A stretch of 64,000 nt of DNA, from positions 1 to 64,000 of the forward strand of contig NZ_JACJJL010000014.1 of NCBI RefSeq assembly GCF_016899955.1, in the 5' to 3' direction. Source of the DNA: Marseilla massiliensis. GTDB lineage: Bacteria > Bacteroidota > Bacteroidia > Bacteroidales > Bacteroidaceae. The notes under the pieces are model-generated. The model did not search any database. It was not told the origin of the DNA and saw nothing but the letters and a program-made list of their open reading frames with translations. Numbering within the stretch: the first letter of the stretch is position 1; each line of letters starts with the position of its first letter. This document shows, in pieces, positions 40,557-53,887 of the stretch. Position numbers and translations under genes: made by a program.

Positions 40557-42269
40557 TCATTTTATTTCCAACAACATCTCGTCAACACTCTTTCCCGGAG
40601 GCGTCATCGGCAGCACGTTGTCTTCTTCCTTTATTGCGCATTCAAGCAGATATGGGCCAGGCGTGGCAAGCATCCTGGCCACCTCGCCGTCCAATGCGGC
40701 CCTGTCTGTCACCAGCGAATATGCTATGCCGTAAGCATCGGCCACTTTTTCGTATACAGGGTTGAGCATCTTGGTGAACGACCTCTTCCCTTCGAAGAAC
40801 ATATCCTGCCACTGCCGCACGTTGCCAAGGTAATTGTTGTTCATCAATATCATCTTCACCGGCACCCGATTCTCCATGATCGTGCCCAGTTCCTGTATGC
40901 TCATCTGGAACCCTCCGTCGCCAGTGAACACACAAACGGTGCGTTCCGGTGCCCCGAAAGCAGCCCCCACGGCAGCCGGCAGCCCGAATCCCATGGTGCC
41001 GAGTCCGCCGCTCGTAACAATGGAGCGCTTACGGTTGTACCGGAAATACCGGCTTGCAAACATCTGGTTCTGCCCAACGTCGGTCACCAGCACGGCATCG
41101 CCGCCCGTAGCCTCGGCCACCGCGTTGACCACTTCGCCCATGAGCAGAGGGCCGTCAGCCGGGTGTATTGCCTTGCTTATCACCTTCTCATACTCCATGT
41201 CGTAGAGTCGGTCGAACGACTCGCGCCATGCGTGGTGGTCGTTTTTCTTGAGCAATCTCGTTATGGCAGGCAGTGTGACCTTGCAGTCGCCTATCACAGC
41301 CACGTCGGTCTTGACACATTTGTCTATTTCCGAGCGGTCGATGTCGAGGTGAATCACCTTTGCCTGCCTAGCATAAGTAGACGTCAGTCCTGTCACCCTG
41401 TCGCTAAAGCGCATGCCAATGGCAATAAGCACATCACACTCCTGCTCTTTCACGTTTGGCGCATAGTTGCCGTGCATGCCAAGCATGCCCACATTGAGCG
41501 GATGGCCCGTGGGCAACGCCGACAAGCCGAGCAGCGTACGGGCTGCCGGTATGCCCGCTTTCTCGATAAACTCAAGCAGTTCGTTATGGGCGTTGCCCAG
41601 CTCTACGCCCTGCCCCACCAATGCCAACGGTCGCTCGGCAGCATTGATCAGTGCAGCCGCCTCGGCTATGGCGTGTTCGTCGGGCGTTGGGTAAGGCACA
41701 TAGCTTCTCACAAAATCCACGTGCGCCGGCTTCCATTCGGCCATGTCAACCTGTGCATTCTTTGGGAAGTCGAGCACCACCGGGCCGGGCCGTCCCGACC
41801 GTGCGATATAGAAAGCGCGGCTCACTGCCCACGCAATGTCTTCCGGACGCCTTATCTGATAGCTCCATTTTGATATTGGCTGCGCCAGTCCCACGAGGTC
41901 AACCTCCTGGAAAGCATCGGTGCCGAGGGCCGCAATGCTCACCTGTCCGGCAATTACCACCATCGGTGTTGAGTCGAGCATGGCGTCAGCCACGCCGGTG
42001 AGCGTATTGGTTGCGCCCGGACCGCTTGTCACTATGCACACCCCTACTTCGCCGCTCACCCTGGCAAAGCCTTCGGCGGCATGCGTTGCAGCCTGTTCGT
42101 GGCGCACCAGGATATGGTCGAATGCCTTGTTCTCTCCTCGTGTGTAATCATAGAGCACGTCGAACACTGGCATGATAGACCCTCCGGGATAACCAAAGAT
42201 GGTCTTCACGCCCTCTTCCCTGAGCGCCCTAATCATTATTTCCGCACCTGATATAATTTCGTTTTGCAT
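40557..42269 (-). CDS. ilvB: Acetolactate synthase large subunit
   Basis: ThDP-dependent enzyme that condenses pyruvate with pyruvate or 2-oxobutyrate. Domains in order: the ThDP pyrimidine domain (FGYPGGSIMPVFD and the activating glutamate in VRHEQAATHAAEGFAR), the FAD-binding middle domain, and the ThDP pyrophosphate domain with GDGGFQMSIQEL followed by MNNNYLGNVRQWQ. The 570-residue length is normal. It is 192 nt after ilvD and 6 nt before ilvN. Confidence 0.97.
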   Translation of the reverse strand: MQNEIISGAEIMIRALREEGVKTIFGYPGGSIMPVFDVLYDYTRGENKAFDHILVRHEQAATHAAEGFARVSGEVGVCIVTSGPGATNTLTGVADAMLDSTPMVVIAGQVSIAALGTDAFQEVDLVGLAQPISKWSYQIRRPEDIAWAVSRAFYIARSGRPGPVVLDFPKNAQVDMAEWKPAHVDFVRSYVPYPTPDEHAIAEAAALINAAERPLALVGQGVELGNAHNELLEFIEKAGIPAARTLLGLSALPTGHPLNVGMLGMHGNYAPNVKEQECDVLIAIGMRFSDRVTGLTSTYARQAKVIHLDIDRSEIDKCVKTDVAVIGDCKVTLPAITRLLKKNDHHAWRESFDRLYDMEYEKVISKAIHPADGPLLMGEVVNAVAEATGGDAVLVTDVGQNQMFASRYFRYNRKRSIVTSGGLGTMGFGLPAAVGAAFGAPERTVCVFTGDGGFQMSIQELGTIMENRVPVKMILMNNNYLGNVRQWQDMFFEGKRSFTKMLNPVYEKVADAYGIAYSLVTDRAALDGEVARMLATPGPYLLECAIKEEDNVLPMTPPGKSVDEMLLEIK

Positions 42270-42461
42270 AATCCTTTTATTTAGAAATCAGACAAAGAAA
42301 ACAGCCGTTGGCTGCCTGTTGAAGCCACGACGGCCATGCGCCCGGCCGGTTCTGCCCAATAATGGCAATGCGCCCGGCCACAGCCACGGCGCATCACTCA
42401 CTGCTGCACGGCCCAGGCCAACAGCCACTGTCGCCCAGCCATGAACCGGCCACTGCCGTTT

Positions 42462-44267
42462 TCAATCTTCGATAATCCTCACTCCGCCCTTGTCGGCCGA
42501 GCTGACGCTCTGCGCATAAGCCTTCAGGGCCTTCGACACCGTGCGCCGGCGCGTCATGGGGCGCTGCGGCCTTGCGGCCAGCTCTGCCTCGGTCAGCCTT
42601 ACGTTGATGCTTCGGTTGGGTATGTCGATGTCGATGATGTCGCCGTCTACAATCTTGCCGATGTTGCCGCCGGCGGCAGCCTCGGGCGAGATATGGCCTA
42701 TGCTGAGGCCGCTGGTGCCGCCCGAGAAGCGCCCGTCGGTAATGAGCGCACACTCAGTGCCGAGGTGCATGCTCTTGATATACGACGTTGGATAGAGCAT
42801 TTCCTGCATGCCCGGGCCGCCCTTGGGCCCTTCGTGGGTGATGACCACGCAGTCGCCGCTCTTCACCCGTCCACCGAGTATTCCCTCGCAGGCATCTTCC
42901 TGTGAGTCGAACACGCGGGCCGGGCCCGAGAACCGCCATATCTTCTCGTCGACGCCGGCGGTCTTCACCACGCAGCCATCCTGCGCGATATTGCCGAAAA
43001 GCACTGCCAGTCCGCCGTCCTTTGTATATGCATGCTCTATGTCGCGAATGCAACCGCAGGCCCGGTCGGCATCCAACGACTCCCAGCGGGCGTCCTGGCT
43101 GCCCATGACCGTAGAGAACCTGTGCCCCGGGGCGCTGCCGTAGATGCGCTCTGCCTCGGCGTCGGGCGTGCCGTTGGTGATGTCGTAACGTTTCATCTGC
43201 TCGCCAAGGGTGTGTCTGTCAACGCGGTTTACATTGCCGTCTATCAGTCCTCCCTTAGCCAGTTCGTTCATTATGCCGAGTATGCCGCCCGCGCGGCCAC
43301 ACTCCTGGACGCTGTATTTCTGGGTGTTGGGCGCCAACTTGCAAAGGCAAGGCACTCGGCGGCTAAGCTCGTCGATGTCGGTCATGGTGAAGTCGGCGCC
43401 GGCCTCTTGCGCCACGGCCAGCAGATGGAGCACTGTGTTGGTGCTTCCGCCCATGGCTATGTCGAGCGACATGGCATTGAGGAATGCCTGGCGCGTGGCT
43501 ATGTTGCGCGGCAACACGCTCTCGTCGCCATCCTCGTAGTATGCCATGGCGTTTTTTACAACCTGCCGGGCGGCGTCGCGGAACAGCTGAATCCTGTTTT
43601 TATGGGTGGCCAGTATGGTGCCGTTGCCGGGCAGGGCCAGTCCGATGGCCTCGGTGAGCGAGTTCATTGAGTTGGCGGTGAACATGCCCGAGCAACTGCC
43701 GCAGCCCGGACAGGCGCAACCCTCAAGCTCGGCCACCTCATCGTCGCTAACCGACGGGTCGGCGCCTTTCACCATTGCCGTTATCAGGTCGGCATTCTCG
43801 CCGCGCCAGCGCCCGGCCTCCATGGGGCCGCCCGAACAGAACACGGTGGGTATGTTGAGCCTCATCGCAGCCATGAGCATGCCCGGCGTCACCTTGTCGC
43901 AGTTGGAGATGCAAATCATCGCATCCGCTTTATGGGCGTTGACCATATACTCCACTGAATCGGCTATGATGTCGCGGCTGGGCAATGAGTACAGCATGCC
44001 GTCGTGGCCCATGGCTATCCCGTCGTCGATGGCTATCGTGTTGAACTCGGCGGCGTAGCATCCCATGGACTCAATCTCGCTTTTTACTATCTGGCCTATC
44101 TCGTGCAAATGCGTATGACCGGGCACAAACTGCGTGAATGAGTTGACTATGGCTATGATGGGACGCCCGAACTGCTCGCGCTTCATGCCCGAAGCCACCC
44201 ACAGGGCACGCGCGCCGGCCATGCGGCGACCCTCGGTACACACTGCGCTTCTCAACTTATGCTTCAT
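42462..44267 (-). CDS. ilvD: Dihydroxy-acid dehydratase
   Basis: Fe-S enzyme of the IlvD/Edd family that makes the 2-oxo acids of valine and isoleucine. Likely cluster cysteines are in [14 protein letters not shown] and [20 protein letters not shown]. Further family motifs include [15 protein letters not shown] and [21 protein letters not shown]. The 601-residue length fits. It is the first gene of the cluster and has a full consensus promoter. Confidence 0.96.
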
Positions 44268-44305
44268 ATTTCGTGTATGTTTTTAATTTCTACCGTAGTT
44301 TGATG

Positions 44306-44337
44306 CAAAGTTAGCCTTTTATATTTTAATATGCAAA
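44306..44337 (-). promoter_or_regulatory. ilv cluster promoter
   Basis: On the minus strand TTTG (44337-44334), 20 nt, then TAACTTTG (44313-44306) is a full Bacteroidota consensus promoter. The leader is only about 30 nt, so there is no room for a classical ilv attenuator. Confidence 0.72.
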
Positions 44338-44429
44338 AAAATATTCAATTAAATGCCATATTACTGCAAATTTATAACCATATACCGCATATTGATAACA
44401 AAATGCAATCATACTACATCTTCTAATAT

Positions 44430-44565
44430 ATAAAATAAGAGAAGGGGAAAGTAAGTATTAAGTATTAAGAATTAAGGAGGAAGATTCAAGGGAATGGGAA
44501 GACAATGGGGCAAAAGAAGAACATTCAAGAATTAAAAATTATGAGTTAAAAATTAAAGCACGGGG
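44430..44565. repeat. Purine-rich low-complexity stretch
   Basis: About 135 nt with very few C residues on the plus strand, with repeated AAGTATTAAG, AGAATTAA and GTTAAAAATTAAA words. It looks like degraded simple-sequence DNA upstream of the ilv promoter. No gene is seen. Confidence 0.5.
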
Positions 44566-44743
44566 AAACGACGTTGGCAAGTTCGCTCGGCCGGATGGAT
44601 GAGGGCAAGCATGCAGGGGGATGAACCGGAAACTTAAGACTACGTATCGTGAGTGCTACATTTTTCTGAATGCATGACAAAACAAATCGGGCAAACAGAC
44701 TGGAAACCATGGCCGGAGAGGCGACGGCAACCACCGAAAAGAG

Positions 44744-44854
44744 CAAAACCGCAGTGGAATCTTTATGAAACGGCATGTTCGGCATTGCAATACGTGCCAT
44801 ACTGCATTGCTTAACCACAGGTCTTGAACTGTCATCCGGCTTGTTCTGCATGCC
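44744..44854. repeat. 22-nt-period palindromic repeat array, copy 7
   Basis: Five units in strict 22-nt phase have cores at about 44749, 44771, 44793, 44815 and 44837. The clearest are GAAACGGCATGTTCGGCATT and GCAATACGTGCCATACTGCA. Units 1 and 4 are strongly diverged. The remainder of 44566-45126 shows no gene. Confidence 0.62.
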
Positions 44855-45126
44855 TGAATGCGACAAATCGTTGAGTTTACATCCATGTTTCGACCAACAA
44901 CAAAATCCGCATCTGGACTTGTCGGCACTCAAAGCTAAGCATTACAACTGATTTACAGGAACTTACATTTATGCGGCCAATACTCGCGCATTTGCGGCGA
45001 AACAAAGCCGCCAATACATAAACGTTGCTCACGCAGGCGTTAATACTGCCCCAGGCATACCGCATTAGGGGTGGGCTATGCCCAAAAAAAACTCATCATC
45101 AGACGTGGATTTTATGATAAAAGAAG

Positions 45127-45134
45127 TATATTTG
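45127..45134 (+). promoter_or_regulatory. Promoter -7 box of the TlpA-like operon
   Basis: TATATTTG is an exact TAnnTTTG box, with a leader of about 95 nt before the ATG at 45236. Confidence 0.5.
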
Positions 45135-45235
45135 CAAAATCAAAAGCAAACAACAAAAACATGGTAACCACGCCAACACACAACGACGAGGCACCTAAAG
45201 CGAACCAATAGCGCGCAACTTAAAACAAACAAACA

Positions 45236-47128
45236 ATGAAATCAAACAACTTCTACAAGACAATGGCCGTGGCGGCGGCCGCTCTCTGCACACTCTCAGC
45301 TATGGCAAAGAGGCCACGGGTGATAGATAACCCTGAGTGCATGGCAAACAGCACCGACAACACACTTACCGTGACGCGCATCGAACTGAGCGACACGGCC
45401 ACCGTGGTTTCGTTTCACGCCAAATACAAACCGGGCTGGTGGATTCGCCTGTCGCGCTCTACGGTACTGGTAGACGACGCGGGGCGGCGGTATGCCACGC
45501 GCTGCGGAATAGGCATCGGGCTAAGCAAGAGGTTCACGATGCCCAAGTCTGGCGAGGCCGACTTCAAGGTTTCGTTCAATCCGCTGCCTCTGTCCACACG
45601 CTACATCGACATGATAGAGGGGCCTAACGACTATAAGATATGGGGCATACACGAGCGGGGAGAGAAGCCGCTGGGCAAGGATGCCACTGCCATAACGCCC
45701 GACACCGCCCTGCAGATTGCCGACGAGGCTGCTTTTTTCCGCCGCGGCACGGGCGTTGTGCGCGGCCGCTTCGCCGGCAAGCACCCCACCATAATAAACC
45801 ACTACGGCTACAACGCCATCATGCACACGGAGACACCGAAGGTGTTTGAAGTGGCCTACGACGGCACGTTTACGGCCACGCTGCCGGTAGAATGCCCAAC
45901 GCTCGACTATCTGAACAATGACAACAGCAAATACTACTTCTACCTCTGCGCTGGCGACACCATCGACGTGACCATCAACGAGGACAACACCGTGAGCTAT
46001 GCCGACGGCACGCGCCACCAGAGGCTGCTCACTCTGCTGTCAAACTACAGCCCCGACATGTCGCTCGACTACCACCACATGAATACATTGGCCGACTCGC
46101 TGACCTTTGCCGACTATTCTAAAGCCATCGTAAGCGGCACGGAGCAACGGATGGCCTTTGCCAACTACCTGATTGGCAAATACGGCCTCGACACGGAAGA
46201 GGCTCACCTGCTACGCACGATTACGCGCATGAGGTGCTGCATGTTCATATCTTGGTTTAAGGAGAACGACACGGACACCACCGCCACAAGCAACATGAAC
46301 CCGGCCAACTATGCCTTCATGCGCCACATGGGGCTGGAAGATCTCACCTGTTTCTCGCTGCCCTTTGAACTCTATTTCCTGCAAAACCGTTACGAATACT
46401 GCAAACCAATAGCATACAAACGCATCCCGGGAAAACCCGCCAACAGGCTGGAATGGGCAGACGACAGCAGGCGCATGGCCATAGATGAAGCCATATTCGG
46501 TCTCGGCCACCCATCGAAGCTGCTCCAACTAATATGGCTCAACGAGGAATATTACACAAGGGCGGTGTATGACAAAGACCCGGAGCGAGGCTCAACGCTC
46601 ATAGACAGCCGCAGGCAACTGCTCGTTTCGCCATTTCTTAGGGAGCGGCTCGACAGTCTGCAGCGCCGGCTGGACAGTAGGGCCAAGGCCACATACGCCC
46701 TGCCCAATGGCCGCGCCGCCGACGCGTTCAACGCTATCGTGAAGCCATATCGAGGCAAAACGGTCATTGTAGACTTCTGGGCCACCACGTGCGGGCCGTG
46801 CGTTGCCGAGATAGAAGCATCCCGGAGGCTTCGCGACTCCATAGCGGCCATGCCCGGCGTAGAGCTGGTGTTCATCACCAACGAGCGCCAGACATCAGAC
46901 AAGTCTTACAAGGAGTTCACTGCAAAATACCTGAACGGCGAAGAATCTTACCGCATACCATACGACGACTGGCTACGGTTCATGGCACTGTTCAAGTTCA
47001 ACGGCATACCACACAAGGAAATAGTGACCCCCGACGGACTCATAGCCAACATGGAGCCGCCACAATTATATCACGGGGAGTATGCCCTGCGGGAAATCAA
47101 GAGAATGGCACGCGAACTCAGGAAATGA
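45236..47128 (+). CDS. Secreted TlpA-like thiol-disulfide protein with large N-terminal region
   Basis: A 630-residue exported protein. A signal peptide (MKSNNFYKTMAVAAAALCTLSAMA) is followed by about 470 residues I do not recognise. These include a beta-rich part (about 40-130), a further domain around 170-255, and a mostly helical stretch. The C-terminal 130 residues are a TlpA/thioredoxin domain with VDFWATTCGPCVAEIEASRRL; the active-site cysteines are C519 and C522. The domain order resembles the Bacteroidota TlpA-family disulfide reductases found near nutrient-uptake genes. It is first of three tightly spaced genes. Confidence 0.82.
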   Translation: MKSNNFYKTMAVAAAALCTLSAMAKRPRVIDNPECMANSTDNTLTVTRIELSDTATVVSFHAKYKPGWWIRLSRSTVLVDDAGRRYATRCGIGIGLSKRFTMPKSGEADFKVSFNPLPLSTRYIDMIEGPNDYKIWGIHERGEKPLGKDATAITPDTALQIADEAAFFRRGTGVVRGRFAGKHPTIINHYGYNAIMHTETPKVFEVAYDGTFTATLPVECPTLDYLNNDNSKYYFYLCAGDTIDVTINEDNTVSYADGTRHQRLLTLLSNYSPDMSLDYHHMNTLADSLTFADYSKAIVSGTEQRMAFANYLIGKYGLDTEEAHLLRTITRMRCCMFISWFKENDTDTTATSNMNPANYAFMRHMGLEDLTCFSLPFELYFLQNRYEYCKPIAYKRIPGKPANRLEWADDSRRMAIDEAIFGLGHPSKLLQLIWLNEEYYTRAVYDKDPERGSTLIDSRRQLLVSPFLRERLDSLQRRLDSRAKATYALPNGRAADAFNAIVKPYRGKTVIVDFWATTCGPCVAEIEASRRLRDSIAAMPGVELVFITNERQTSDKSYKEFTAKYLNGEESYRIPYDDWLRFMALFKFNGIPHKEIVTPDGLIANMEPPQLYHGEYALREIKRMARELRK

Positions 47129-47138
47129 ACACGCCGGG

Positions 47139-47360
47139 ATGCAGGCGGATGGCTTTTCCGCCTCCATCGACCTATTTCCTGAAAAGGAACTCGACCGCGT
47201 GGGCGATTCGGTCTATACGGCCCAGGTGGAGAAGATGATACGCACCGACGCCCGGCTGCAGGAAATCATCAGCAGGAAACTGCTCGACTATTTGCTTGCA
47301 CCCGACAATGACAATGCCAAAAACAACATGACAACAACCAGAAACGACACGGAACAATGA
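47139..47360 (+). CDS. Small hypothetical protein between two thioredoxin-like genes
   Basis: A 73-residue acidic frame (MQADGFSASIDLFPEKELDRV...) begins 10 nt after the TlpA stop and overlaps the next gene by ATGA, as translationally coupled genes do. The sequence reads as a plausible two-helix protein (QVEKMIRTDARLQEIISRKL) with an Asn/Thr-rich tail and no signal peptide. It might instead be chance coding or a remnant. The coupling overlap is the main argument for it. Confidence 0.45.
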   Translation: MQADGFSASIDLFPEKELDRVGDSVYTAQVEKMIRTDARLQEIISRKLLDYLLAPDNDNAKNNMTTTRNDTEQ

Positions 47361-49459
47361 AAGCAAAGATCTGCATGACAATGGCACTGGCCTCCGTTTG
47401 CACCATGGGCGCAGCCCAGACACAACGCGCCATCGACGACATAGACAAGGAAATAGCAAGGCTTGAACGCTCGGACGAACTGCAGACGCGCCGGACCGAC
47501 AACGCCAATGCTTTCTTCAATGCCAAGCTCTATAACCAGCAAAAGGCCGGCAACCGCCAGGCTCCGCACATTCAAGACTGCAAAACGCTTTATTTTAAAT
47601 ATCTTTACGAAGTGGGCGACACTGCTGCCGCCCCATTGTTGCCGAAGTGCATAGGGCGCCTGGAACGGGCATTGAAACGAAATGCCGGCCTTGCGTCGCA
47701 GGCGTTGACTCACGATGCCGACCCTTCGGGCATCAACTCGCGTGAGATCGATGGATTGACCTACGCCTACTCCGACAGCATTGGCGGGGTGACGGCATAT
47801 TCATATCCGCTCGACAATCTGTGCAACTATGCCACAATGACTTTCTGCGGCAGCGACAGTGTGCGCACCAACTATATGTTTGCCTGGAAACCGCAGCTAT
47901 TCACAGACATGGAGTCGAGGCGTTTCTGCACCATCGACGGCTATATTGCCAAACTGACCGGAAAAGACTGGCAGGCAAACAGCTATATCGACTTCAACGA
48001 AAGCGGCTCGGAACAAAAGGTATACGACGTGGATGAAACAGAGAGGATAGACACCATGACCGGCGACATAGCCGTAAGCCAGGTGAAGATGCTGGCAGAG
48101 AAGTTCCGAAAAAGCATGGCCAAAGGCAACTACAAGCAGTGTGATGCCATAGCGTTCGTGATGAGGAGGCTCGCCGAAAAGTTTGACGGCACGCTTACAA
48201 CCGAACAATATGACTCGATAAAGCGAAATGTTTGGTCGATGGAAGAAACCGGCAACAGTCAGAGGGACAAGGCTCTTATGAGAACAGTGTCGGCCTTCAG
48301 AAGGAAAACGGAGCAAAAAACGGAGAAGCCATACAGGTCGCAAAGCTCTGACCTCGCAATGTCAACGCGCTCAAGGCTTGGCAAAAGGTTATGCCCGCCG
48401 GAAGTGTTTATGGTTGTCTCCGAGTTCATGGGATACCCGCAAATGTGCAATGATGAACCCACAATCGCCGTCAGAATCATCGGAACTGCGGCAGATGAGG
48501 ACTCAAAGATATTCGTCGGCGGATTGGCACCCGACAAGACTTTCGCCGTGCCAACCGATAAGCGGGGGTTCCGTTTCTGCAAGGACAGGGTGAGAAACTC
48601 GCTCGTCTGCATCACCGACGGCAGCAATACTTACTATGCCTTTGCCGACACCGTGACGATAAACGTAGACATGAGGCGCGGCATAACATCTGCCTCTGAG
48701 ACCAACATGAAACTGATGGCGGTGCAAGACTCGCTGAAAGCATTCGACACCGAGGCCATAAAATACTCCACAACCATCGACGGCAGGTTGACAGTGACCG
48801 ACAGTGCGGGCTTTGCCCGACTGATGCGGCGGCTCGACAATTATGTAATGGCAACAATAAAGGCCAACAGCGACAATGCCGTACACCTGTTCCTGCTGTA
48901 CAATTATTATTTCAGGATGAGCCAAGACGAGCTGGCACTCTATGTAGATTCGACCGGGCGCTACGCATCAAACCTGCTTATGCAGCCGGCAGCGAAATAC
49001 TTTAATGACAACGAAAAGCTGAAACCCGGCACAAAACTGGCCGACACTGAATGCTGGGACACCGACGGCAACAAACGCAACACGGCTGAATTTCGCGGCG
49101 ACGGGTATACTTTGCTTTACCTGTACTATCCACAAAACAGGGACGGACGGCGCGGAGCCGAAATCGTCAGGCAGCTTTACGACCGCTATGGCGGCAAGGG
49201 CCTGAACATAGTGTGCCATGCCTTCACGTTCGGGTTCAATGGCGACATATGGCGGTGGTACATAAGACGCAACGGCATGGAGCGCTTGACCAACATCTTC
49301 GGGGGCAACTTTGCGGCTCTGAACCACGTGAACGCAATGCCGACTGCGATAATATTAGACAACAAAGGGCGCATAGTTGACAGCTGCCACTACGGCCCCG
49401 GAATGGTGGAAAAGGTGAACCGGATTATGGAAAACCGCCCAACGGCCCAACGGCCATGA
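47357..49459 (+). CDS. Secreted protein with cysteine-less thioredoxin-like domain
   Basis: A 700-residue exported protein with a signal peptide (MKAKICMTMALASVCTMGAA). Most of it is unfamiliar. A helical region runs to about 330, followed by a beta-rich middle part (VFMVVSEFMGYPQMCNDEPT) and helices. The final 150 residues look like a TlpA-type fold. They run from LADTECWDTDGNKRNTAEF through a strand LLYLYYPQNRDGRRGAEIVR, where WCxxC would be expected, to VNAMPTAIILDNKGRIV with the cis-proline position. The redox cysteines are absent, so it is probably a binding or structural partner, not an oxidoreductase. It overlaps the small upstream frame by 4 nt. Confidence 0.72.
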   Translation: MKAKICMTMALASVCTMGAAQTQRAIDDIDKEIARLERSDELQTRRTDNANAFFNAKLYNQQKAGNRQAPHIQDCKTLYFKYLYEVGDTAAAPLLPKCIGRLERALKRNAGLASQALTHDADPSGINSREIDGLTYAYSDSIGGVTAYSYPLDNLCNYATMTFCGSDSVRTNYMFAWKPQLFTDMESRRFCTIDGYIAKLTGKDWQANSYIDFNESGSEQKVYDVDETERIDTMTGDIAVSQVKMLAEKFRKSMAKGNYKQCDAIAFVMRRLAEKFDGTLTTEQYDSIKRNVWSMEETGNSQRDKALMRTVSAFRRKTEQKTEKPYRSQSSDLAMSTRSRLGKRLCPPEVFMVVSEFMGYPQMCNDEPTIAVRIIGTAADEDSKIFVGGLAPDKTFAVPTDKRGFRFCKDRVRNSLVCITDGSNTYYAFADTVTINVDMRRGITSASETNMKLMAVQDSLKAFDTEAIKYSTTIDGRLTVTDSAGFARLMRRLDNYVMATIKANSDNAVHLFLLYNYYFRMSQDELALYVDSTGRYASNLLMQPAAKYFNDNEKLKPGTKLADTECWDTDGNKRNTAEFRGDGYTLLYLYYPQNRDGRRGAEIVRQLYDRYGGKGLNIVCHAFTFGFNGDIWRWYIRRNGMERLTNIFGGNFAALNHVNAMPTAIILDNKGRIVDSCHYGPGMVEKVNRIMENRPTAQRP

Positions 49460-49640
49460 CCTAATGCCGTTGCGCAAGCCGTGCCCCGCCACTGCCGCTA
49501 CCATGGCATTGGCGGCCACCTGGGCCCACCATGGCCTGCAGCCACAAGGCTGCGGGCTCGCCCGCAACCCATTTTCGACTGCCACCACCATTATGAAAGC
49601 TTTTTCACACACACAATACCGAAGGTTAGATTTTTATTAG

Positions 49641-49648
49641 TAACTTTG
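49641..49648 (+). promoter_or_regulatory. Promoter -7 box of the GH2 gene
   Basis: TAACTTTG matches TAnnTTTG, 31 nt before the ATG at 49680. Confidence 0.55.
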
Positions 49649-49679
49649 CAAAATAGAACATTCTAATAATCAAAACATA

Positions 49680-52091
49680 ATGAGAGACAAGATTCTGACC
49701 ATTGCGCTGGCCGTGGCAACAGCCGCCGTAGCGCAGACGCGGAGGGAGATTACGCTGACCGATGGATGGCAGTTCTCACGCGACAAGGCCGAGTGGCAAA
49801 CCGTTAGCGTGCCCCACGACTGGGCCATCAGCGGCCCGTTCGACAAGAAATGGGACTTGCAGACGGTGGCAATTGAGCAAAACAACGAGAAGGTGGCAAC
49901 GGAGAAGTCGGGCCGGTCGGGCGCGCTGCCGTGGATTGGCGAAGGCCATTACAAGCGCACACTGGCCATACCCGAGGGCTACAGCAAGGCCGAGCTGGTG
50001 TTCGACGGGGCGATGGCCGAGCCGACAGTGACCATCAACGGACAGAAAGCCGGCTTTTGGCCGTATGGATATAATGCGTTCAAGATTGACATAACGCCAT
50101 ACATCAAGGCCGGCGACAACCAGATGGAGGTCGACCTGAACAACCTTGAGGAGAGCAGCCGATGGTATCCCGGGGGTGGAATCTACCGTCCTGTCACACT
50201 GATACTGACCGGCAAGGAGCGGATTGCCACCTGGGCAACGTTCGCAAGGACTGCCAAGATAGACGGAAAGAAGGCATACATAGACGTAGACACAAAGGTT
50301 GAAGGCATCGACGCCACCGACAAGGCCGGGGTGGAGATAACACTTTACGACCGCAAAGGCTACGTGGCAGCTGCAAGCAGATGCGACATCGAGGCCGACG
50401 GAACGGTGAAGACCCAGCTGGACGTGGACAAACCGGAGCTGTGGTCGCCCGAATCGCCATACCTCTACAAGCTCACCACGCGCCTGTATAAAGGCAACAG
50501 GCTGATGGACGAGCAGACAATGAACTTCGGTATACGCACCGTGAGCGTCACAAAGGAAGGCGGATTCCAACTCAACGGGCAGACACGGAAAATAAAGGGA
50601 GTGTGCCTGCACCACGACTTGGGCCCGCTCGGTGCCGCAATAAACAAGGCCGCGCTGATAAGACAGATAAAAATGATGAAGGAAATGGGCTGCGACGCAA
50701 TACGTACGGCACACAACATGCCTTCGACAATGCAGATGGACGTGTGCGACTCGCTCGGGATGATGGTCATGGCCGAGAGCTTCGACATGTGGAAATACCC
50801 CAAATGCAAGAATGGCTACTGCCGCTTCTTCGACGAATGGGCCGAGAAAGACATTACCAACCTTATCCTCAACCATCGCAACCACCCGTCTATCATAATG
50901 TGGAGCATTGGCAACGAAATACCCGAACAGGGCATGAGGGGAGGTGCCGAGACGGCCAAGAGGTTGCAGGACCTGTGCCACAAACTCGACCCCACGCGCA
51001 CGGTGACGCAGGGAATGGACCGTGTGGACAACGCAATGAAGACTGGTTTCGCCGGGGTGATGGACGTTCCGGGATTCAACTACCGCCTTCACAAGTATGA
51101 AAAAGGACTGAAAGAGTTGCCGCAGGGCTTCCTGCTCGGCTCGGAGACGGCGTCGACGGTAAGCTCGCGGGGCGTCTACAAGTTCCCCGTTGACATTGCC
51201 GCAGGAAAGAAGTACGCCGACGGGCAATGCTCGGGCTACGACGTTGAGCACTGCTCATGGAGCAACCTGCCCGACGACGACTGGCGTTGGCAAGACGATT
51301 ATGACCAAGTCATCGGCGAGTTTGTGTGGACAGGATACGACTATCTGGGCGAACCTACGCCCTATGACGAGTATTGGCCCAGCCGCAGCAGCTACTTCGG
51401 GATATGCGACTTGGCCGGACTGCCCAAAGACCGTTACTATCTCTACCGCAGCAAATGGAACAAGGAGGAGCACACAACGCATCTGCTGCCCCACTGGACG
51501 TGGCCCGGCCGCGAGGGAAAAGTTACGCCGGTATACTGCTACACCGACGGCGTTGAGGGCGAACTGTTTGTCAACGGCAAGAGCCAGGGGCGCATTAGGA
51601 AGAACAAGGAAGGCCGCCTTGACCGCTACCGCCTGCGCTGGAACAACGTGAAATATGAGCCGGGAGAAATCAAAGTCGTCACTTACGACGCCAACGGAAA
51701 CAAAATAGGAGAGCAAAGCCGACGTACCGCCGGAAAGCCGGCGCAGCTATTGCTGAGCGCCGAATGCCAGACGGCAAGCCAAACGCCAACACTCAAGGCA
51801 GACGGAGAAGACATGGCATTCGTCACTGTCACCATGGCTGACAAGGAGGGGACGCCATGTCCGACGTCCGACAGCCAACTGACGTTCACCGTCGAAGGCG
51901 ATGGCGTGTTCCAGGCAGCCTGCAATGGCGACGCAACATCGCTCGAGCCGTTCACCAAACCGCAGATGAAGCTCTTCAACGGACAGCTGGTGGTCATCGT
52001 GCGCAGCACAAAACAGGCCGGGAAATTGACACTTACAGTGACCGACAAGAAGCATAACATAACCAAATCGATAGACATCAAGACTATCTGA
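49680..52091 (+). CDS. Glycoside hydrolase family 2, beta-galactosidase-like
   Basis: An 803-residue exported glycosidase with a short signal peptide (MRDKILTIALAVATAAVA). The GH2 layout is complete: a jelly-roll sugar-binding domain with GEGHYKRTLAIP, an Ig-like domain, then the TIM barrel. The acid/base is E413 in MWSIGNEIPEQ, and the nucleophile is the Glu in GEFVWTGYDYLGEP. DUF4982-like (YTDGVEGELFVNGKSQGRIR) and further Ig-like domains follow, as in Bacteroidota beta-galactosidases. The specificity could also be beta-glucuronidase or another GH2 activity. It is monocistronic, with a terminator 50 nt downstream. Confidence 0.9.
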   Translation: MRDKILTIALAVATAAVAQTRREITLTDGWQFSRDKAEWQTVSVPHDWAISGPFDKKWDLQTVAIEQNNEKVATEKSGRSGALPWIGEGHYKRTLAIPEGYSKAELVFDGAMAEPTVTINGQKAGFWPYGYNAFKIDITPYIKAGDNQMEVDLNNLEESSRWYPGGGIYRPVTLILTGKERIATWATFARTAKIDGKKAYIDVDTKVEGIDATDKAGVEITLYDRKGYVAAASRCDIEADGTVKTQLDVDKPELWSPESPYLYKLTTRLYKGNRLMDEQTMNFGIRTVSVTKEGGFQLNGQTRKIKGVCLHHDLGPLGAAINKAALIRQIKMMKEMGCDAIRTAHNMPSTMQMDVCDSLGMMVMAESFDMWKYPKCKNGYCRFFDEWAEKDITNLILNHRNHPSIIMWSIGNEIPEQGMRGGAETAKRLQDLCHKLDPTRTVTQGMDRVDNAMKTGFAGVMDVPGFNYRLHKYEKGLKELPQGFLLGSETASTVSSRGVYKFPVDIAAGKKYADGQCSGYDVEHCSWSNLPDDDWRWQDDYDQVIGEFVWTGYDYLGEPTPYDEYWPSRSSYFGICDLAGLPKDRYYLYRSKWNKEEHTTHLLPHWTWPGREGKVTPVYCYTDGVEGELFVNGKSQGRIRKNKEGRLDRYRLRWNNVKYEPGEIKVVTYDANGNKIGEQSRRTAGKPAQLLLSAECQTASQTPTLKADGEDMAFVTVTMADKEGTPCPTSDSQLTFTVEGDGVFQAACNGDATSLEPFTKPQMKLFNGQLVVIVRSTKQAGKLTLTVTDKKHNITKSIDIKTI

Positions 52092-52143
52092 CGGCAATGC
52101 CTGCCAAGCCAAGACACCTCGACAGGCAACCAACACCAAAAGG

Positions 52144-52187
52144 AACATCCCGCTCACCGAGTCAATTGACCGTGTAAGCGGGATGTT
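52144..52187 (+). terminator. GH2 gene terminator
   Basis: A perfect 11-bp stem (AACATCCCGCT, 52144-52154, with 52177-52187) is followed by TTTAATTC, about 50 nt after the stop. Confidence 0.75.
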
Positions 52188-52218
52188 TTAATTCAAAACA
52201 GAATGACGACCAACATGG

Positions 52219-52350
52219 TCATGCGTACCATCCGGAGATGTTGACCATGGACTGATAACGCTCGTCGAAATCCTCGTTGTAGTGATTGTCCAGCTCATAG
52301 AACTCTTCATTGTACGATTTTCTTCTTGGCTTCATAGTCTGTTCCTCCAT
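52219..52350 (-). CDS. Small acidic-aromatic protein, 43 residues
   Basis: A short minus-strand frame reads MEEQTMKPRRKSYNEEFYEL and goes on through DNHYNEDFDERY to end NISGWYA. A second start at Met6 (52335) would give 38 residues. Evidence that it is real: a consensus TATATTTG box lies about 65 nt upstream, and the composition (many Tyr, Glu, Asp and Asn, a basic KPRRK patch) is unlike chance translation. No gene runs over it on the other strand. It is soluble, with no signal or membrane segment. I do not recognise it. Confidence 0.55.
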   Translation of the reverse strand: MEEQTMKPRRKSYNEEFYELDNHYNEDFDERYQSMVNISGWYA

Positions 52351-52417
52351 CAGGCCCTCCGTCTCTATCGGACCCTGTTTAGTTAACACTGCAGATGCGA
52401 GACCACATCCTCATTGG

Positions 52418-52425
52418 CAAATATA
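52418..52425 (-). promoter_or_regulatory. Promoter -7 box upstream of the 43-residue gene
   Basis: TATATTTG on the minus strand is an exact TAnnTTTG match. The predicted leader is about 60 nt. Confidence 0.5.
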
Positions 52426-52636
52426 GTCATTTTATGGTTTAAGACGAGCATCTGATAGCATTATTTCACGCTCATTAATCCTTATTACGATTTATACAGT
52501 TCTGCAATGTCCCACCAAACGCAACATGGCAGCAAAGCGATTGGCAGGTGAAACGGCACGCCTGCCTCGACCGAAGAGAGCACCCCGCCCTACACTCCCC
52601 ACAGCCACTAAGTCCCAAACGCCCAAAACGGGCATG

Positions 52637-52667
52637 AAAAACCCCGCCGGCCATCAGGCCGACGGGG
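52637..52667 (-). terminator. OmpA gene terminator
   Basis: On the minus strand an 11-bp GC-rich stem with one mismatch (52667-52657 with 52652-52642) is followed by TTTTT. It lies about 70 nt after the ompA stop. Confidence 0.75.
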
Positions 52668-52738
52668 GCGTATCCCAAAACAAAAATTTACCCTTTTCTT
52701 TATTCGGCGGACAAAACTATTTGCCGCTACGGCTCTAA

Positions 52739-53887
52739 CTATTGCTTGCTAATATCCGTAAAAGTAACCACTCTGTTGAAATCTACCTCGTCGAATAGCT
52801 CGTCTGTGGCTCCCATGCCCCTTACGCTGATGCGTGAGGCAGCCACGCCGTAACGCTTGACAAGCGCGTCCTTGACAGCATTTGCACGTGCTTCAGAGAG
52901 CTTCTGGTTCAGTTCCTTGCTGCCTTCCGGCGAAGCATATCCCTTGATAAGTATCCTTGCGTCCTTGTGGTTCTTCATATATGTAGCCACCATCGACACA
53001 CTTGCGTATTGTGCGGCATCGATATTGCTCTTTCCCTGGCGGAAAATGACAGTAGGCTGGAGAACGTTCTCGTCTTTCTTCACAACCACCGTAGGCTTCT
53101 GCTGCTTGGCTGCTGCGAGCTGAGCCTGCAGGTCTGCTATGGTGTTGCGGTCGTTGGCGATGACGCCTTCCTTCTCTTCATTGGCGGCGCGCAACCTGTT
53201 TATCCTGTCGTTCAGACCGTCAATCTCAGCCTGGTCGCGCAATTCTGCAATCTTGAAATTATGTGTCCCGTTGCTGTTGGCAAACTTGTAGTTCACTCCA
53301 ACGAGCACTCCCAAGGCAGAACGGTCTACATTGAACTGTGTCTTCATGCCGTTATCAAGCGCATAAGTGATGTTCGGCTCAATGTAAACCTGCCAGTCCT
53401 TGCGTGCACCGAGGTTGAAGGCGAAGTCCAATCCCAGCTTTGAGGTGAACGCATTGCGCTCGTAAACGTCGGCACTCTCTGTGCTGAAGACGTGGCCCCA
53501 GCCCAGTCCATAGACACCGATTACCTCAAACAAGCGCGGCTCGCCGGTGTAACCGCCAAACCAATTGCTGAAGTTTGTGGTTCCCAACAACGACACATTG
53601 GTGCCCTTGACAAACGTACCGAGCGGGCGCTGCATGCTCGCTTTATTGTTGAAATAAGCCTCGCCTTCGATTGCAAAACCAAATACCGGCGTAAAATAGC
53701 GCCCTATGCGCAAACCGGCCGAAGGGTTGAGGTTCTTGAATATGGCCGTGTGTGTGGTCTTAGCGTTTAGACCTGTGTTGACTCCCAAATACCAATTGTC
53801 AAAAAACTTGCTGTCTTCGACTGTCTGAGCAGATGTAGTTTGTGCAGTCAATGCGACTGCAGCAAACATTAATAATAACTTTTTCAT
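52739..53887 (-). CDS. OmpA-family outer-membrane protein
   Basis: A 382-residue protein with a signal peptide (MKKLLLMFAAVALTAQTTSA). The N-terminal part (about 30-205) is a beta-barrel with alternating aromatic strands (NWYLGVNTGLNAKT to LGVLVGVNYKFA). A short coiled coil follows (LNDRINRLRAANEEKEGVI to about 260). The C-terminal OmpA domain binds peptidoglycan: VIFRQGKSNIDAAQYASV, then ILIKGYASPEGSKELNQKLSEARA with the conserved Asn/Arg region. It tethers the outer membrane to the cell wall. It is monocistronic, with its own promoter and terminator, and is probably highly expressed. Confidence 0.92.
   Translation of the reverse strand: MKKLLLMFAAVALTAQTTSAQTVEDSKFFDNWYLGVNTGLNAKTTHTAIFKNLNPSAGLRIGRYFTPVFGFAIEGEAYFNNKASMQRPLGTFVKGTNVSLLGTTNFSNWFGGYTGEPRLFEVIGVYGLGWGHVFSTESADVYERNAFTSKLGLDFAFNLGARKDWQVYIEPNITYALDNGMKTQFNVDRSALGVLVGVNYKFANSNGTHNFKIAELRDQAEIDGLNDRINRLRAANEEKEGVIANDRNTIADLQAQLAAAKQQKPTVVVKKDENVLQPTVIFRQGKSNIDAAQYASVSMVATYMKNHKDARILIKGYASPEGSKELNQKLSEARANAVKDALVKRYGVAASRISVRGMGATDELFDEVDFNRVVTFTDISKQ

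Follow-up and report, generated by a model that had tools for sequence, protein, structure and literature searches.

Genes at the locus

We analyzed a stretch of 64,000 nt from Marseilla massiliensis (positions 1 to 64,000 of contig NZ_JACJJL010000014.1, assembly GCF_016899955.1; hereafter the window), in which two large genes for exported proteins lie on the forward strand with a small open frame between them (Table 1). The first protein carries a CGPC active site (C519 and C522), and the second reads YPQNRDG in the region where TlpA-like proteins usually have their CxxC. A sequence-only reading had regarded the two as catalytic and non-catalytic subunits encoded by one operon. The frames and motifs it named were verified in position and both large frames are intact, but the operon of paired subunits was not upheld, as the two genes are set apart in relatives by a gene for an extracytoplasmic function (ECF) sigma factor, one for a regulator and a strong RNA hairpin. 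Judged by gene content, the window locus is the remains of a conserved sigma-factor module beside an ordinary CGPC protein.

Table 1. Positions of the genes, domains and motifs at the locus
Feature	Position	Strand	Remarks
Promoter-like motif TATATTTG	45127..45134	+	Fits TAnnTTTG; 109 bp upstream of the first gene
First protein (P0001)	45236..47128	+	630 amino acids (aa); putative exported TlpA-like thiol-disulfide oxidoreductase with N-terminal domains; frame intact
CGPC active site of the first protein	46790..46801	+	Residues 519-522
Small open frame	47082..47360	+	92 aa; runs over the 3' end of the first gene and shares ATGA with the start of the second
Regulator remnant within the small frame	47175..47351	+	Residues 187-245 of the 247-residue regulator, its C-terminal helix region
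Second protein (P0003)	47357..49459	+	700 aa; redox-dead TlpA-like protein, putative third component; frame intact
DUF4369-like part of the second protein	48449..48697	+	About residues 365-447; DUF4369 matches in 10 of 25 family members; alignment to CGPC paralogue
Predicted thioredoxin-fold domain of the second protein	49016..49435	+	About residues 554-693; structural match to 4grf; family profile
YPQNRDG of the second protein	49127..49147	+	Residues 591-597, at the usual TlpA CxxC region

The first protein has both a thioredoxin-like domain (Pfam Thioredoxin_8, 28.1 bits against a cut-off of 27) and the CxxC active site, the two cysteines of which are invariant across nine aligned members, relatives included; on these grounds it is a putative TlpA-like oxidoreductase. 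By eye, both large proteins appear to start with signal peptides that are cleavable and lack a lipobox. Among 398 genomes of the genus including its own, the first protein had matches at E ≤ 1e-60 in its own genome and in three others (G113, G157 and G351), whose orthologues are 59-60% identical to it, and a plasmid search gave two partial relatives (31 and 37%). DUF5643 was matched by three of the nine members of its family (best 5.6e-5), the window member reaching only 0.11, and its N-terminal 140-250 residues are also found in other proteins of 600-700 aa in the genus. A paralogue about 37% identical, with a shorter N-terminus, is encoded on contig C39 of the same genome (L116:208-1722); it carries CGPC and two more CxxC pairs, CTDC and CLPC, and has orthologue-like copies in G113, G157 and G351.

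The second protein itself has no Pfam match in its thioredoxin-like region. It is the sole exception among 25 aligned family members, the other 24 of which match AhpC-TSA and Thioredoxin_8 (E ≤ 0.1), and the profile of these 25 proteins retrieved ResA/TlpA-like chains from the PDB (best E 3e-22). For the window protein, an AlphaFold model built with 24 relatives reached a mean predicted local distance difference test score (pLDDT) of 73.7 and a predicted template modeling score (pTM) of 0.69, and its modelled thioredoxin domain (residues 554-692) superimposes on 4grf over 136 residues (Z 17.8, root-mean-square deviation 2.2 Å; Foldseek E 4.4e-7). The C-terminus is thus predicted to adopt the TlpA/ResA thioredoxin fold, and a non-thioredoxin C-terminus was rejected by the family profile and the structural match. 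The CxxC active site is absent from this predicted fold. The protein had been called cysteine-less, which applies to the active-site pair but not to the chain, as it contains 15 cysteines, three of them (566, 620 and 677) inside the thioredoxin-like domain.

The 550 residues ahead of this domain had been described as unfamiliar. This does not hold from about residue 370 on, where the protein shows a DUF4369-TlpA layout: DUF4369 was matched by aligned family members at E ≤ 0.1 (Table 1), and a 366 aa DUF4369-TlpA paralogue with CGPC, encoded on contig C52 of the same genome, shares the layout of the later half. The same fold and layout are found in TlpA/ResA-like oxidoreductases with DUF4369 such as 4grf (BVU-2223), 2lrn and 3fkf; unlike these enzymes, the window protein and 53 full-length relatives lack CxxC, and the family has an N-terminal extension of about 340 residues and, in the relatives, a link to a sigma gene.

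The first 320-340 residues are the added part, modelled as an alpha/beta domain followed by about four helices. We modelled this N-terminal domain from a relative (L134) that is 27% identical to the window protein over the stretch (pLDDT 77.6, pTM 0.54). Foldseek gave no match at E ≤ 0.001 and no structural match reached Z 8; the two best (Z 7.8 and 7.4) concern the helical segment. For the alpha/beta part, PA1624, DcrB, SciW, EagT6 and PsbP, which we take to share one fold, recur at Z 4.8-6.5, a likeness that may reflect a common fold or just a common arrangement. LolA and RseB are not among the structural matches shown for this domain, all of them below Z 8. A likely history is that a TlpA-type protein acquired this N-terminal part and, with its active site gone, became attached to a sigma operon, all before the spread of the family across the genus.

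Two genes missing from the window

In relatives, the proposed gene pairing holds in so far as the orthologues of the two proteins are same-strand neighbours in G113, G157 and G351, the second downstream of the first. However, an ECF sigma gene and a gene for a single-pass membrane regulator stand between them in all three genomes, and a strong hairpin lies between the first gene and the sigma gene (-20.7 to -23.7 kcal/mol, z -2.9 to -3.9). Since this hairpin precedes the sigma gene, the first gene may form a separate transcription unit in the relatives. A conserved two-gene operon of a catalytic and a non-catalytic protein was rejected because of these intervening elements. At the equivalent place in a further genome, G188, a gene that we name ilvD-like from its sequence is followed by the sigma, regulator and third genes, and the first gene is absent.

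The window has no sigma gene at this locus. In DNA alignments, window positions 47031-47187 comprise 156 bp where G113 has 1275 bp, and in the alignment with G157 the window has 135 bp in place of 1233 bp. About 1.1 kb is therefore absent, the sigma gene, the N-terminus of the regulator and its membrane helix being missing ahead of the remnant, and this absence accounts for the direct adjacency of the two window genes. The alignment gave no counterpart of the hairpin in the window junction. What is left of the regulator lies in the small frame, residues 34-92 of which are 69% identical to the regulator C-terminus (68% for regulator residues 187-245 of 247, E 1.7e-18). Pfam and NCBIfam scans of the small frame gave no match. 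An unrelated gene was rejected, as 59 of its 92 residues match the regulator.

Elsewhere in the same genome we found no close relative of the G113 sigma protein, the best match being a frame with one stop at 31%, nor the remainder of the regulator, in an assembly rated 99.98% complete. An operon that is intact in the organism, with the 1.1 kb lost through faulty assembly, is therefore highly improbable, even though the genome is assembled in 128 contigs and another genome, G125, has an odd frame leading from sigma to third gene on a contig of 4 kb; the divergence of the second protein is an independent sign that the window copy differs. The frame in G125 (L107:308-2329, forward strand) starts like an ECF sigma protein and continues as a redox-dead third protein; either the regulator was lost a second time, independently, or the contig is misassembled.

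The second protein is only about 35% identical to its orthologues, in contrast to 59-60% for the first, whereas among G113, G157 and G351 both proteins are 79-88% identical. Across 54 aligned proteins, 10 of 34 near-invariant positions are changed in the window protein (next worst 5, median 0), including F589 and W590, which directly precede the lost site. After it split from G351, its branch measures 1.14 versus 0.82, and the ratio of nonsynonymous to synonymous substitution rates (dN/dS) in the thioredoxin domain is 0.60-0.63 between the window and the orthologues, compared with 0.22 between G113 and G157. These values fit a weaker constraint on the window second protein.

The deletion may also have changed how the second gene is transcribed. 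The motif TAnnTTTG, which we take to be the Bacteroidota promoter motif, occurs 50 times in the window versus 27.5 expected, and TATATTTG is its sole forward-strand match from there to 47357. Because this promoter-like motif lies upstream and no further one precedes the second gene, cotranscription of the two window genes is plausible as a consequence of the loss, and the CGPC gene and the third gene probably share one promoter. An Rfam scan of 42000-52800 gave nothing at the gathering score. Consensus scans of 44200-49800 gave five terminators versus 7.5 expected and nine sigma-70-type promoters versus 4.8 expected, a promoter type that Bacteroidota genes are not known to use.

Conservation of the sigma, regulator and redox-dead genes

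We collected relatives of the second protein from further genomes and from the best 80 of 87 named loci, and the family profile matched 132 frames in loci L097-L126, L134-L213, L010 and L085. Frames with identical last 300 residues were counted once. Full-length relatives (at least 640 aa, profile start ≤ 20 and end ≥ 655) numbered 53, to which the window and G351 proteins do not belong and one of which is the odd frame of G125; short matches (closed frames of ≤ 400 aa that score 60 bits or more and have a profile end ≥ 640) numbered 38. As near-identical relatives remain among the 53, clustered counts are also given. The relatives come mostly from Prevotella and Prevotellaceae, with some from Bacteroidaceae, Bacteroidales, Alloprevotella and 'uncultured bacterium', and a named isolate, Xylanibacter muris (L137), carries the sigma, regulator and third genes. 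No further full-length third protein was found in the genome of the window, and a scan of genome contigs with the second protein alone as query gave no relative. Searches of the other 294 genomes of the order at E ≤ 1e-60 gave no full-length member among the at most four candidates scored per genome; weaker members outside the genus are possible.

None of the 53 full-length relatives has a CxxC in its last 200 residues, compared with 33 of the 38 short matches, among which are CGPC paralogues at a Prevotella communis locus. The five short matches without CxxC (65-318 aa) start inside the profile and include the only two short ones with a sigma gene upstream; we take them as pieces of broken long frames. 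Long redox-dead frames also appear split in L193, L207, L213 and L163, by decay or by sequencing errors.

Of the full-length relatives, 47 have 1.5 kb or more of sequence upstream, and in all 47 an ECF sigma gene stands there on their strand, no more than 2.5 kb away; none of the 31 short CxxC paralogues with the same room has one; the sigma profile was built from 12 of the same loci. The association remained after clustering at 60% identity (14 of 14 long versus 0 of 20 short) and at 50% identity (10 of 10 versus 0 of 6). Overall, 50 of 53 have the sigma gene, and the other three have only 159, 307 and 775 bp upstream. The three sigma proteins scanned, including that of G113, all pass the Pfam cut-offs of Sigma70_r2 and r4_2. 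Their best NCBIfam match is the GFO_1088/PG0214 family ECF sigma factor (NF058625) at 117, 103 and 124 bits, all under its cut-off of 130 bits, and the window has no sigma gene at the locus to compare.

A regulator frame adjoins 47 of the 53 full-length relatives. In the other six cases, the regulator was beyond the distance limits (L165, L136 and L151), masked (L146) or not found (L085 and L107). All 47 regulators contain a hydrophobic stretch beginning at residue 45-97, and they consist of an N-terminal part and one membrane helix, then a linker of low conservation and, at the C-terminus, a conserved helix. Among 28 regulators less than 70% identical to each other, this last helix (residues 181-220 in G113) is the best conserved part, at 0.61-0.68 versus 0.25-0.46 elsewhere, and it is the part kept in the window as the remnant. 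The regulator frame overlaps the start of the third gene in 32 of the 47, and the ATGA overlap is common to the window, G113 and G157. In the genome of the window, sigma relatives on contigs C42 (51551-52395) and C45 (14035-14857) each adjoin a frame like the first 110 residues of the regulator (L128, L130, L132 and L133), which ties this N-terminal part to sigma factors in general.

The flanks of the relatives bear on the earlier proposal of an envelope complex with the CGPC protein as catalytic and the redox-dead protein as non-catalytic subunit, which we consider very unlikely. The two genes are neighbours in the window, G113, G157 and G351, and active TlpA-like genes lie near 13 of the 53 relatives: of the 38 with at least 3 kb of downstream sequence, 8 have such a gene with CxxC within 4 kb on that side, and of the 39 with at least 3.5 kb of upstream sequence, 5 have one within 4.5 kb. 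The chance of one in 4 kb is about 1%, as estimated from the window's own genome (12 Redoxin matches in 4.13 Mb), a figure that does not allow for relatedness or for the numbers in other genomes. However, 40 of the 53 have no active TlpA-like gene in the searched flank, two genes and the hairpin intervene in the three relatives, and G188 has the sigma, regulator and third genes at the same place without the first.

A possible periplasmic sensor

The absence of CxxC in all 53 full-length relatives and the fixed ECF sigma link suggest that an enzyme fold has probably been turned into a signalling part. We give about even weight to the reading in which the Prevotella lineage has an ECF sigma module whose third component, with a periplasmic binding or sensing role, is the second protein, orphaned and diverging in the window; the module rests on gene content, the role is proposed. 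The regulator is most likely an anti-sigma factor. In such a module, the ECF sigma factor would be held by the single-pass membrane regulator, and the redox-dead protein would sit in the periplasm, bound to the conserved C-terminal helix of the regulator. It would also bind an envelope ligand, whether a client protein, a peptide or a surface partner, and this binding would set the strength of the regulator's grip on the sigma factor; the thioredoxin fold would serve as a binding module and not as a redox enzyme. In the window's genome, the sigma gene, the N-terminal part of the regulator and the membrane helix would have been lost and the tail kept as the small frame, leaving the third protein as an orphan that drifts from the family consensus and has presumably lost its function. 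More tentatively, a DUF4369-TlpA enzyme that lost its CxxC and gained the N-terminal extension may have been recruited as the periplasmic sensor of a Prevotella ECF sigma/anti-sigma pathway.

Several findings weigh against this reading. Pfam and NCBIfam gave no anti-sigma family match for the four regulators scanned, and the third genes of sigma operons may also be outputs rather than sensors. The frame of the second protein is still intact across 700 codons, and dN/dS of the remnant against the three relatives is only 0.23-0.31 over 59 codons, which indicates constraint through the greater part of the period after the split. Two accounts fit: a recent deletion, with change in the second protein already under way before it, or a remnant that still has a use, perhaps that of a leader frame. 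The latter would mean that the small frame couples translation of the second protein or makes a small protein of its own. We regard this as unlikely: the ATGA overlap shared with G113 and G157 speaks for it alongside the low dN/dS, but by eye no membrane helix or signal peptide is left, so that a helix exposed to the periplasm in relatives would remain in the cytoplasm, and a recent deletion accounts for the low dN/dS equally.

The main rival to a sensor, which we think rather unlikely, places the third gene outside the control circuit: as an output of the sigma module, it would encode a chaperone or binding protein of the envelope that is synthesized upon induction. The gene order fits it equally, and active TlpA-like genes lie downstream on the same strand in 9 of the 53 relatives, as in an envelope regulon. 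However, the overlap of the regulator and third-gene frames and the conserved C-terminal helix of the regulator suggest, without proving it, that the two proteins work together. If the sensor reading is true, a client-binding fold informs transcription about the condition of the envelope, and the window holds the remainder after the cytoplasmic half was lost. Modules of this kind occur in Prevotella genomes, and the window's genome is a natural loss of sigma factor and regulator in which the third gene stays in place. The locus also calls for caution, as a catalytic/non-catalytic pairing read from a single genome here arose by deletion.

The E. coli RpoE-RseA-RseB operon likewise encodes a sigma factor, a single-pass membrane regulator and an exported third protein, and RseB is LolA-like. 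The likeness to the present triad is by analogy of position only: the third protein here is TlpA-like, both the anti-sigma role of the regulator and its binding of the third protein are putative, and the first two genes are lost in the window. According to PMC13088901, the anti-sigma factor Dma of Bacteroides itself extends to an outer-membrane beta-barrel. As described there, Dma resembles the triad in that a Bacteroidota ECF sigma factor stands beside a membrane regulator with a part before its single membrane helix and a tether-like part after it. In contrast to Dma, which ends in the barrel, the present regulators (171-278 aa, longest 286) end in the conserved helix and have a separate exported partner; at less than 300 aa, all 47 leave no room for a barrel past the linker, and the four scanned had no Pfam barrel match. 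The literature searches made, which extended to passages of PMC12596196, PMC5607195 and PMC13088901, turned up no published description of the sigma, regulator and redox-dead TlpA arrangement; they did not cover the ECF reclassification paper, where an entry is possible.

As for the genes that follow the triad, an outer-membrane beta-barrel gene (PF14905) was found in three of five relatives scanned (L099:8125-10935, L102:7843-10680 and L101:8707-11010), a rhamnosidase gene in L105 and a gene for a protein without Pfam match in L104. The barrel genes might represent a split form of the Dma design. In the window, a glycoside hydrolase family 2 gene lies downstream at 49680-52091 with its own TAACTTTG motif at 49641, and by eye a G113 protein at the equivalent place has a similar start.

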